Below are positions 48,201 through 54,200 of a stretch of 64,000 bases of DNA, one piece after another (position 1 is the first letter of the stretch; the number at the start of each line of letters is the position of its first letter). The notes under the pieces were generated by a model. It was not told the DNA's origin. It saw only the letters and a list, made by a program, of their open reading frames with translations, and did no database searches. Made by a program: the position numbers and the translations under genes. The DNA is from Odiellus spinosus (lineage: Eukaryota; Arthropoda; Arachnida; Opiliones; Phalangiidae): contig OY987230.1 in NCBI GenBank assembly GCA_963920705.1, forward strand, positions 18,315,320 to 18,379,319. The letters are read 5' to 3'.

Positions 48201-51200
48201 AAATGAGTATAAAGTTATTGTAAAAAGATAAGAATCTATAAATCTAAAGACGGTTTAAATATTTTAGGTAACTAAGCAAACTCGGGCTGGTTATTATAAA
48301 GTCAATATGACTTTGTCTTACCGATGCAGTCGGTGCCATTGGGTTCTTTGCCATCAGCGCAATAGCATAAGGGTCCTTTAGGACTAGGACGACAACCGTA
48401 TTTACAATTGGCGCTCGTACAATCTTGATTTTTTTCTGACAGAGGTTAAACGAAGGTCAAATAGTCTGTTTCGCGAATGAAAGAGGGGATCCTAACGAAT
48501 ATTAACTTACGGCAAAAAGAACCTTCGTCGGAATAATCCGGGCAATCGGGATGACCGTTGCATAACTGATTGATTTTCAAGCAAGTTATTCCGTCCTTGC
48601 ATCTAAAATAATTGCGAGGACAAGCGCTACCCTTGTGACCTAGAATGACAACCAAAATTTGATCGAAATTATCTACATTACCGCGTCAAACTAGAACTCA
48701 AACAGCGATAGTTCGTTGTAAAATTGATAAATAACAACTAAATACACCGTTGGGTCAAATATAATTACAAAGAGTTAATATATTTCAAAGGAGCGTGCGC
48801 ATTTTTGTACTTACACCTTCTGGTGTCTTCGTCCGAAGTGTCTGGTATTAGATTTTCTCCAAGACCGCAATCTGGTTCGCCGTCGCAAACCCACCCCAAT
48901 GGAATACAATGCCGCGTGCTGGCACATTGGAATTGTCCGGTCTGACATACTTGAGGAGCTATAAAAGACACCGAAGAACAAGAACGTCATTATACGGTGA
49001 TAAAACTATTCTAAAAACATAATTTAGAAAGTTCCTCCGAGGGGAAAAAAAAGAGTCATTAATAATTCGGTTAATTACAGTGAGGGGCTAAATACCACGC
49101 AGACCTCTCATTAATAGCAAATTTAATTATAGATTAAGACTACGTTTTATGGATATTTTTCACCAAACGATTTTCGTGGCGAAAAAATATTTTCGCTAGT
49201 GATATTAAATTATTGTTTATATGGCGAAATTTGTTCCCCTGAAAATAATTTTTTCGCTATTTTTTGTCCTTATTTTTCGCTGCGAAAATAACAACCTTAT
49301 AAAGGAATTTGACATCGTCTTGCTATCAGTCCTGATTTGATAAACGAAACTCCGAAAACACGTCTATAGTGGTAGAAAAATACCAGTAACATCCCCAAAT
49401 ACCCCCTAAATTTCGACCACCCAAAAGTTTCAATAAAAATATGAGTTTAAAATTAAATTTCTAAATGAATTTTAAATGAATAACAAGGAGATTATCTCCT
49501 GTGTCTGTCCTGACTCCTAACTCCAAAAAAAGTGTTCAAAAACTGTGAATAAATTCTCGAACACATGGTGATTCCAAAAATAAATGAAACTGCATAATGA
49601 AACTTCGATAATTAATTACATTTTAATTAGCGAAGTTGTTAAATTTGGCTCGAAGAAATTTAAGTTTGAAATTAAAGGTCAGAATTTCTAAATACCAATG
49701 AGAGTTCGTCTTTTAAATTGCGATTAATATCATAAGATAATCATCATATTTCAAATTACGCATCTAGGTTGTAATTCTTGAATTTTCCTCTCATATCGCG
49801 CGAAAGCTTGGACGTCTCAATTTCCAGAGCAACAGACCAATCATAATATTCCCGATTGTACCTTTGGAATTTATGATTATCCCGTGATAGGATATACATA
49901 CGTTCTCATAATTTGTTTGCGTCTCATATTCACAAAGCTAAGTCGGATAATTAGATTAATCACAAAAGAGGATTAACTTTGAAATGGATCAAAAATACTA
50001 AAGAAAAACCAGCTTTTTATAGAACTTTAAATAGCTTTCAACTTTGTAACTGTATATAATGAACGGCATGATAAGTGCCGGTATGTAATTACAAGCGACC
50101 AGATCTTATATTTGCAGAAACATTTCAAATGATCCTGATTAAAGTATTACAATAATTAAAGTATCAAGTTTCGGACTAAAATCAGAAGGGTTTCGAGTAT
50201 CAAAGTCACGTCGTTGTCATTAAATCTAGCAAATTAGCCCACAATGCTCGTGTATTTAAGCCCTGGAGACTGTAAAGCCATATTTTCAGAATTATCAGTC
50301 GCCAGACACTATGGTCGACAAAACGTCAGTCGTGATAATCGCCTTGGCTTTAAGCCTATCCGTCGCTTTTCCCAAGACACCCATAGCGGAAACCATTCCA
50401 TCTAGCACCAGTGATCCTTCAATGGACAGGTATATGTCGAAGAATCTTGTTTTAGACAATTATGGGTTGACGCGGTGCAAGTATTTAAGTTTTCATCTTA
50501 ATGAAATGGTAGTTTTGATAAAGAAGGCTTTAAAGGGAGGGTGAAGAGAAAATTAAAGTGAATTTGATTCGGCTTTTAAAAGTGAGTAGTAAAACATTCA
50601 GGAAGTGTCCCTGAATTGTACAAAACAAATAGACGGAAGCTAGGCTGGATAATTTAAGAGCAGATAGGGCTTTTCAAAGTCCGGTATTTCGACATGTATT
50701 ATTCTTGGAGTATTTAAACTAAGCCTAATTTTTAACAAGAAATATGGTTACATAAGATCAAGGGGACTATTCGTAAGCATTTCAATATGCAGATTCGATC
50801 GACTTCGAAATCGAGAACTTAAAACGACTAAAAAATCGATTTCGACAGAGAAATCCATAGGAAATTCGAACGATTTTTCGATTTCGATTTTGCCAAGGAA
50901 AAGGTTGTCTTGTCGAGAAAAAACATTCAGAATAGTCCCTTTAGTGCGTTCTGATTAAAACCTTCGTTACTATGTTAAAGAGAAATGGAATTTTAGCCTA
51001 AAAACTAATATTTTGACGAGACTTGGCCTTTAATAAAATGCTATTCCAGAAACTCTACAACTAGTGACATGAACAAGACCCTAATGGCGCCCAATTCCGA
51101 CTCGGGATTAAATGAAACTACAACTGACGGGACCCTGACAACCGAATCAACTGATTTTACAACCACGGAGCCTATTATGACAACTGAGAGGGTTTCTTCG

Positions 51201-54200
51201 GGCGCCTCTTCGGTCAAAGCAGCGCCACTCGAGTTAACCCAACTGAAAGATATCCACTTGGCGGCTCAAACCTTGGCGGTCAATCCATATTTGACTATGA
51301 ATTTCATACAAGATGTGGCCCGTAAGTTTTTGCAACCTTTATCTCGCTCAAAAGGGAGTAAGAAAAGATTTTTACTGTCCTTTTCATTCTCCCTTTATTT
51401 ATTTTTTTTAACGAAATGAATCAGGGTTTCCATTTAAGACCTTATTCGATAGGTGAGGGACGCCACGAGCAGAACGTCCCGTTTCCGATGGGAATATTTG
51501 GAAACCCTCAAACATTTCCTCCAACTTGGAGATACCCAATGCTAAAGGCGTGTTGTTGATTCATAAGATATTACTAATAAAGCCAAAGATATGGTAAAAC
51601 AACGTAATAATTATAATAAAATTCAATAAAAAAATATATATACCGTTTAAAATAACTCTATATAGCAAATAATATTGGGTGAAACATACCATAGTCGAGC
51701 GAAATCGCGAATTATAATCCTTCAATAATGGTGAAAGGAATCCTTGAAAAATCTCAAACTCTGCCGTTTCGCGACTAATTTTAAGGTTTAGAACTTATTA
51801 TTAATATTATTAAACATTATTTTATATTTTAATAGCGATAATATACTAATAATATAGCCCTTTGGGTCGAGAGAATAGTGGTTTTGAAGTTAGGACTTGG
51901 TTAGGCTTAACGCGCTGTTGAAATTGAAATATTTTTGTTACTTTGGCAAGTTGCCAGGGAAACTAGTTTTTAAGTTCACCACCGCTACCGATAGATGGCG
52001 AGCTTGGGCCCAAAAAAAATCTGATTTTTCCTTTTTAACGAACATATATAATTAAGTTTTGAAATAATAATAGAGGTTGGATCGGGGTCACTAGAAAATT
52101 CCTTGAAACGAGTGATAAAATATGGACAACATCTCAATGTTTGCGTGAACTTCTAAAATAATAATTTTAATTTTCAGGGGCTCTAAAAAGCTTGGTTATG
52201 AACACGAATAAAAGAATGAAGACTGGTAAAAAAATTAAGGTTAACCCAATATTAATGAGGAAAATAGCAAAAACAAAATACGTGCGATATCCAGAAACCT
52301 TGTTTGACACTGACAGCGAATAACATTCACGAAAACGTTCAACTGTATTTTGTATACCTAGCTCATGCAATAAAGACAATTAATAAAAATAAGCGTTTAA
52401 TCTATTATGATACGATTTTCTGAAGATTCGTCTTTAGGTGTCTTCCGAATAAATGTGATTGGGGGGGGGGGGGGGCATAGTCACATTCGCCAAAGCGTTA
52501 CGTTTTGGTTTTTTTAAGTTAAACTCGAGTAGAATATATAAGAACGCAATAAAAAATACTTTATCTTCCCTTTAATGAAAATCAGATGATGGACACCGTA
52601 GAGTTAAAAGTCGGCTCATAAACCATTTCCTTATGGAGGCAATGATAATGACATAAATTTTTTCAACACCAGTTTCTATTAGGGTGCAATAATGGAGAGC
52701 TCAGATAAAGGAAAAATGAAATTTATTTTAAAAAAACATTTTAAAGGTACATTATCATAACGGCTGTGTTATGCCATGGAGGAAGAATTAGAGGCAAAAG
52801 CCCGAGTTGTCCATGGTGATGCTGGCAATATTTGCCTAAAATTCTAAATTTTTACGCCTTTGGGTTGACGCTTTTTTTTAAATATCTTAAAAATTAGAAC
52901 TTCCTGTTAAATAAGTATTAAAGCTTAAGCCTAAAATTGGATTTGCGCCGGCCCTGTTTTCCTAATCATAACATAAATAGCCTAATAAGGCAAATTAATC
53001 GTGATTCCGACAGAATTTCCAAGAATATAGTCCTTGAATACATTACAAATATAAACTGATCTTATATGAATTGATTTACCTTTTAAGCGAATCCTTAAAT
53101 CCCTCGAAATTACGAATCTCGAAATTCATCGATAGAGAAAAACCGACAATGTAATTTTAAACTAACAAGAACGATGGAACAATCCGCAGCTACTAATTTC
53201 CCGTTTCGCGATTAATTTCAACTGTTAAATTCGTAATAAACATTTAAAAAATCATTGGGCACTTAAAATCGCGAAATTATTAACATTTTTGGATGAGAAG
53301 TACGGAGTTTCAGCAGTTAGGCTTAACTCGTTTTTGAAATCTGTCAAATAAGGCCAAGAAGGATCAGATAAGGCTTAGGATTTGGCGCGCGCCGCCACTG
53401 TAGTTGATAGATGGCGCCAGGGGCTCCATAAAAAATCGAAAATAACAAATGAACTTAAATAAATTAGTAATTTTAAGGGATTGAAATCTGAGATTATAAT
53501 TTATTTCGAAAGTTATTATTTTTATAAATGTAAGATAATTTATAGGGTAAATTAAACAAATATTAAATAAATATTAAAACAGGGTTCGTATAAAAGTTTG
53601 GAACTTAATTTCCACGACTTTTCCAAGTTTTCCCTGATCATTTGTAAATAATTTCCCTCACAAAAATTGAATTTATTCATTAATTAATCTTTAGTCAAAT
53701 TCCCAGACTTTTCCTGACCTTTAGGGGCAATTTTCAAATTCACTGACTTTTCACTGACCTTTAGGATCTTTTTTCAAATTAACAGATTTTTCCCTGACCT
53801 TCAGGGGCAATTATCAAATTCCCTGATTTTTCCCTGACCTTTAGGAGCAATTTTCAAATTCCCGACTTTTCCCTGACCTTTAGGAGCAATTTTCAAATTC
53901 CCTGACTTTTCACTGACCCTTTTGGGCCAATTTACAAATTCCCTGACTTTTCTCGGTTTTCCAGGTCGTGTACGAACCCTGCTGACCTTTGGCTTATTTT
54001 TTATTTATTTTTCAGATCGTAAACGAAAGTTTCTGGAGTAATTATCGTTTCACGTTCCCTTTAATATCGCGCAAGCCATAGGTTGTTAATAATATACCCG
54101 ACAAGTTATAAATTTCAATCTTGGAGATGGCAAGAGAGTGTACGTATAGCCTCGCATCGAATAGTGTCGTGATTGTATTAACCCTTTCGCCATGAAGCAG

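Follow-up and report, generated by a model that had tools for sequence, protein, structure and literature searches.

Mammalian LRP1-AS is a non-coding RNA that overlaps exons of LRP1, and the mucin-like or Thr/Ser-rich secreted proteins of insects combine a signal peptide, a Thr/Ser-rich stretch and N-glycosylation sequons. According to a Drosophila survey, nested genes account for ~6% of all genes in these flies, nearly 85% of them are protein-coding and they frequently occupy the strand opposite to their host, whilst conservation among Drosophilidae extends to only 20–34% of embedded relationships (PMC3786989). A second study puts opposite-strand nesting at 74.3% for human and 77.8% for mouse, in line with Drosophila, and states that most nested genes originate as young duplicates (PMC8467205). 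Here we describe a stretch of 64,000 nucleotides (nt) from the harvestman Odiellus spinosus (contig OY987230.1, positions 18,315,320 to 18,379,319), hereafter the window, in which a small gene predicted on the plus strand (50311-52323, window coordinates) lies antisense within intron 2 of an LRP1 gene. Judged by its sequence, this is probably a genuine protein-coding gene, present in one copy, with a secreted, mucin-like product and no regulatory tie to LRP1. Since nested antisense genes are common in Drosophila (PMC3786989), the arrangement is ordinary, and the locus very probably represents a conventional nested gene and not a novel type of system.

Like 2mit, which lies in tim2 of Drosophila, the gene is complete, sits in a host intron and is read from the opposite strand; the 2mit–tim2 arrangement is common to Drosophilidae and honey bee (PMC3786989), whereas the gene described here is known from one genome. 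Like mammalian LRP1-AS, the nested gene would be transcribed antisense inside LRP1, but it is wholly intronic and coding-like. With insect mucin-like proteins the predicted product shares the signal peptide, the Thr/Ser-rich stretch and the sequons, but it is short and has no tandem repeats, Cys-rich chitin-binding domain or Pfam match. Literature searches found no paper on a nested gene in an LRP1 intron of insects, and none with any of six peptide words from the product.

Two minus-strand open reading frames (ORFs) confirmed the identity of the host by matching the class A and class B repeats of LDLR in Pfam. A long minus-strand LDLa/LDLb/EGF gene was also rebuilt by a simple gene finder, though split into several parts, some of its exons being false. 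LRP1 exon 2 (LDLa) spans 55294-55178 and exon 3 spans 48949-48815, both on the minus strand, with the nested gene wholly between them, and the antisense position in a 6.2-kb intron 2 given by the first-pass annotation is thereby upheld (Table 1). Starting LRP1 exon 3 at 48949 keeps the frame with exon 2 and retains the leading Cys of the LDLa domain that follows; the start chosen by the gene finder, 48941, does not match the phase of exon 2. The plus-strand model (50311-50429, 51050-51321 and 52178-52323; model A) comprises 537 nt and encodes 178 residues, with the frame kept and no internal stop. Its landmarks are ATG at 50311, donor GTs at 50430 and 51322, acceptor AGs that end at 51049 and 52177, and a stop ending at 52323; the intron phases are 2 and 1, and positions −3 and +4 around the start codon are A and G, respectively.

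Splice-site choice, codon usage and simulation make it very probable that exons 1 and 2 are coding. Codon scores were trained on 18 ORFs from the gustatory-receptor and LRP1 genes, none of them from the nested gene, and the splice matrices were generic, with a second weight set trained on LRP1 sites. Unprompted, the gene finder picked the junction 50429/51050 and the donor at 51321 in both whole-window and single-gene runs. The best single-gene plus-strand model of the intron scored 31.0, model A scored 20.7, and the same gene with a rival last exon (model B, below) scored 24.9. The best models of 400 first-order Markov simulated introns averaged 5.4 and reached a maximum of 13.7, and four other mainly non-coding segments, scored on both strands (8/8), gave at most 11.8, the 11.8 segment including real LDLa coding sequence and parts of two segments belonging also to the non-coding training data. 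The 178-codon coding sequence had a codon score of 11.0 against at most 4.5 in 20,000 random non-coding draws, which may contain stops and are penalised for them. Guanine plus cytosine (GC) content at third codon positions (GC3) was 0.54 in exon 1 and 0.51 in exon 2, compared with 0.505 in the training ORFs and an overall GC of 0.32 in non-coding DNA, and the sense frame of exon 2 was the best of six (11.3 versus 4.2 for the top antisense frame). Under the LRP1-trained weights donor 2 beat all 241 further GTs in the stretch, and it ranked among the best 4 of 250 with the generic weights; among 61 predicted LRP1 sites it stands at the 84th percentile and acceptor 2 at the 61st. Two unspliced readings, exon 1 alone (4.1) and exon 2 read-through (11.6), scored below the spliced models and were rejected.

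Several observations weigh against a real gene of this structure. One antisense frame of exon 1 scores higher than its sense frame (9.1 versus 5.9), and the minus strand of the intron reaches 13.9, marginally more than any simulation, owing mostly to sequence antisense to exons 1 and 2. The splice sites and matching phases reported for the three exons are present, but "consensus" was a generous word: in the ranking of predicted LRP1 sites donor 1 (CAG/GTATAT) occupies the 5th percentile and acceptor 1 the 34th, and with generic weights 9 of 250 GTs attain the score of donor 1 and 57 of 316 AGs that of acceptor 1. The finder's optimum adds a small 5' exon (50059-50080, start 50059) to the frame and donor of exon 1, and its tails differ from model A (54796-54848 in the single-gene run, or a false long chain after 52225 in the whole-window run), so the gene ends are not fixed by sequence. 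Its whole-window run further yields false genes, a good many of which lie antisense to exons of LRP1, and being called by the finder is therefore no proof in itself. Exon 3 shows no clear codon bias, with a GC3 of 0.39 and a coding score of ~0 for its 48 codons. The genome search revealed no paralogue, although young duplicates are said to give rise to most nested genes (PMC8467205); without a source copy, either an older or strongly diverged insertion or a de novo birth would be needed. The case as a whole draws on the sequence of one genome.

Under a different training split exon 3 scores −5.5, where random non-coding DNA of the same length averages −16.5 (standard deviation 8.2; stops penalised); it lies above average non-coding DNA, yet is not clearly coding. 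Its acceptor score is reached by 10 of the 316 AGs of the intron, and acceptor 52178 was also used by the whole-window finder, with another exon end, and not by the single-gene run. Tails as good as that of model A arose in 2 of 500 simulations, or in 14 of 500 when the poly(A) condition was dropped. Among 183 downstream acceptors, 51453 gives 35 codons with a coding score of 5.9 and an acceptor score of 0.6, and a 17-codon tail at 54796 tops all others on acceptor plus coding; this score alone consequently cannot choose the tail.

Use of acceptor 51453 would give the same gene another end, a variant of the model rather than an exclusive rival, and we regard this as a possible though somewhat doubtful ending. 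Model B would encode 165 residues with a Pro/Phe-rich tail containing two Cys, and is favoured by its higher whole-model score, a GC of 0.50 in its last exon against 0.34 in that of model A, and the poly(A) signal close behind its stop. Its acceptor, length, coding score and poly(A) signal were jointly matched in 0 of 500 simulations, under criteria set after model B had been seen, but its acceptor plus coding score (6.5) alone was reached in 19 of 500, and its acceptor is weaker than that of model A (2.3). Continuation of an amphipathic helix across the junction ranks the model A tail 9 of 92 and the model B tail 21 of 92, mildly favouring model A. The predicted final exon is either 52178-52323 or 51453-51559. 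Overall, the original gene call stood for exons 1 and 2, on finder junctions, GC3 and simulations, and did not stand firmly for exon 3, which lacks clear codon bias and is outscored by its rival. The poly(A) signal was found as described, in two copies, and the basic tail with KR and GKK is indeed encoded in the proposed exon 3, but that exon is uncertain; if model B is true, none of these basic-tail features exists.

The predicted product begins with a hydrophobic N-terminus of peak hydropathy 3.16, a peak of at least 2.5 occurring in 1.75% of 400 simulated best models, followed by an S-V-A/F-P site that fits the −3/−1 rule for signal-peptide cleavage; the signal peptide, as claimed in the first-pass annotation, is thus borne out as far as hydropathy and the cleavage site show. 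The Thr/Ser-rich, glycosylatable region claimed alongside it was likewise recovered at residues 41-97, with 24 Ser/Thr among 57 residues and N-glycosylation sequons (n = 3) at residues 41, 48 and 61 of the product; set against the long or repeated Thr/Ser/Pro domain of secreted mucin-like proteins, it is short, with 2 Pro among the 57 residues and no repeats on self-comparison. The model A product contains no Cys. A single-sequence AlphaFold model of exon 2 left residues 1-60 of this exon unstructured and placed helices at its residues 62-77 and 80-89, and carries little weight (mean predicted local distance difference test score 58.2; predicted template modelling score 0.25). The helix-prone stretch contains few Ser/Thr and no sequon.

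Searches for relatives covered Pfam, the PDB, viral contigs and the organism's own genome, and the absence of relatives, like the lineage-specific status suggested in the first-pass annotation, is to be read within that range. The 178-residue product matched 0 Pfam families at expectation values (E) up to 10, the 165-residue product of model B not being included; the best match among PDB sequences (E 0.33) was judged to be chance, and none of five pattern matches in viral contigs was confirmed as a relative, in keeping with the earlier statement that no family could be recognised. Within the genome (443 Mb, 286 contigs) the three exons matched only themselves and no paralogue was found; one further match, C14 (E 2.25, 32% identity over residues 9-113), is by eye a Ser/Thr-rich ORF that is otherwise unlike the product, and was rejected as a paralogue. 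A transposon origin was rejected too: as DNA, exon 1, exon 2 and the last exon of model B, the last of these searched as genomic DNA only, each had one genome match, itself (very common words skipped), and exons 1 and 2 hence do not resemble pieces of a transposon.

Upstream of the start codon, a motif scan found possible initiators at 50286 (TCAG) and 50295 (TCAGT), at spacings of 35 and 44 nt from TATTTAAG to the initiator A, longer than the usual ~30 nt between TATA box and initiator. A TATA-like motif lies 30-80 nt upstream of 22 of 169 ATGs in the non-coding parts of the window, and promoter motifs are accordingly not diagnostic.

Chance ORFs without any gene would have had room in a long intron of 6,228 nt, and in one simulated intron the best model ran to 192 codons; the score of model A was nevertheless reached in 0 of 400 simulations, which makes this explanation quite improbable. 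The ORFs might instead be remnants, left in a decaying gene or in an antisense transcript that is degenerate or non-coding. This would suit the lack of clear codon bias in exon 3 and the weak first splice sites, but exons 1 and 2 are stop-free, have a coding-like GC3 and encode a signal peptide, and the genome search turned up no paralogue as a possible source; we consider it rather unlikely. The first-pass annotation had also suggested a peptide precursor, and this part of its interpretation did not survive, in contrast to the nested antisense gene with a secreted Thr/Ser-rich product, which did. A neuropeptide-like precursor of processed bioactive peptides would be expected to carry a signal peptide such as this one, and one KR (142-143) and one GKK (147-149) are present, each the sole instance in the product. 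Neuropeptide precursors carry peptides between dibasic sites, often amidated, but the sites here enclose only the tripeptide MKT; self-comparison shows no repeated unit, and both sites belong to the uncertain exon 3. As KR and GKK frame nothing beyond MKT, a peptide hormone is very improbable.

A real nested gene with a secreted mucin-like product thus remains the preferred explanation. It would be transcribed from its own compact promoter, in another tissue or stage than LRP1, and its product would enter the secretory pathway, where the Thr/Ser stretch may be O-glycosylated to form an extended mucin-like spacer. The C-terminal part of the protein could then be what acts outside the cell, in a small secretion of structural, lubricating or reproductive-tract/salivary type, and the gene would have no regulatory tie to LRP1 beyond occupying its intron. 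On the prior offered by nested genes, a tissue-restricted, perhaps male-reproductive, secretion would be its most likely use. That the gene was born de novo, or diverged beyond recognition, in the LRP1 intron and now represents a new lineage-confined secreted family for reproductive or salivary secretion is conceivable but unlikely.

Table 1. Predicted features of the nested gene and its host intron (window coordinates).
Feature	Position	Strand	Description
Host LRP1 intron 2	48950..55177	-	6,228 nt; contains the nested gene
TATA-like element TATTTAAG	50253..50260	+	5' of the start codon; motif scan, weak
Exon 1, coding sequence	50311..50429	+	ATG; signal peptide, possible cleavage SVA/FP after residue 19
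Exon 2, coding sequence	51050..51321	+	Thr/Ser-rich N-glycosylatable stretch, then helix-prone stretch (... NFIQDVA)
Rival last exon (model B)	51453..51559	+	35 codons; poly(A) signal AATAAA 17 nt past stop
Exon 3 as proposed (model A)	52178..52323	+	Basic tail; stop 52321-52323; candidate, not established
AATAAA poly(A) signals (two)	52369..52387	+	At 52369 and 52382; the first 46 nt past the model A stop

LRP1 intron 2 also contains repeated DNA. A 40-bp minisatellite of 6.5 copies lies at 53695-53952, and related dispersed repeats, with the core GTTAGGCTTAAC ... GATAGATGGCG, occur at 51900-52020, 53301-53460 and 54740-54900, as well as at 62601-62760 of the window. One copy sits in intron 2 of the nested gene, and two aligned pairs were 63% and 81% identical. 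A genome search with 51640-52177 returned only the self match (very common words skipped), so the repeat family may be small or diverged. A run of 15 G (52461-52475) stands just beyond the poly(A) signals of the nested gene.

Elsewhere in the window, a tandem cluster of about five gustatory-receptor genes occupies 1-8894 on the plus strand, mostly as single ORFs, the first seemingly cut by the window edge; all scanned ORFs (3/3) matched Pfam 7tm_7. The third copy (3637-4876, plus strand) changes frame near 4130-4140, indicating a pseudogene or an assembly error. By eye, 62860-64000 shows repeats in blocks a few hundred bases long (GCGAGTTGAGACCAATCCGTTAATCAG...), partly in inverted orientation, which may form a palindromic transposon. 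The 64-kb window yielded no Rfam match at gathering scores and no tRNA genes. The genome is rich in the telomere-type repeat TTAGG, with 7014 matches in forward and 2583 in reverse orientation.

The locus would leave views of LRP1 and of nested genes as they stand. Ultimately, if it is transcribed, it would exemplify the type of gene that annotation pipelines can miss, being small, antisense and intronic with no relative found in the collections searched, and would contribute one secreted protein that has no known relatives and a case in which the origin of a nested gene can be tested.

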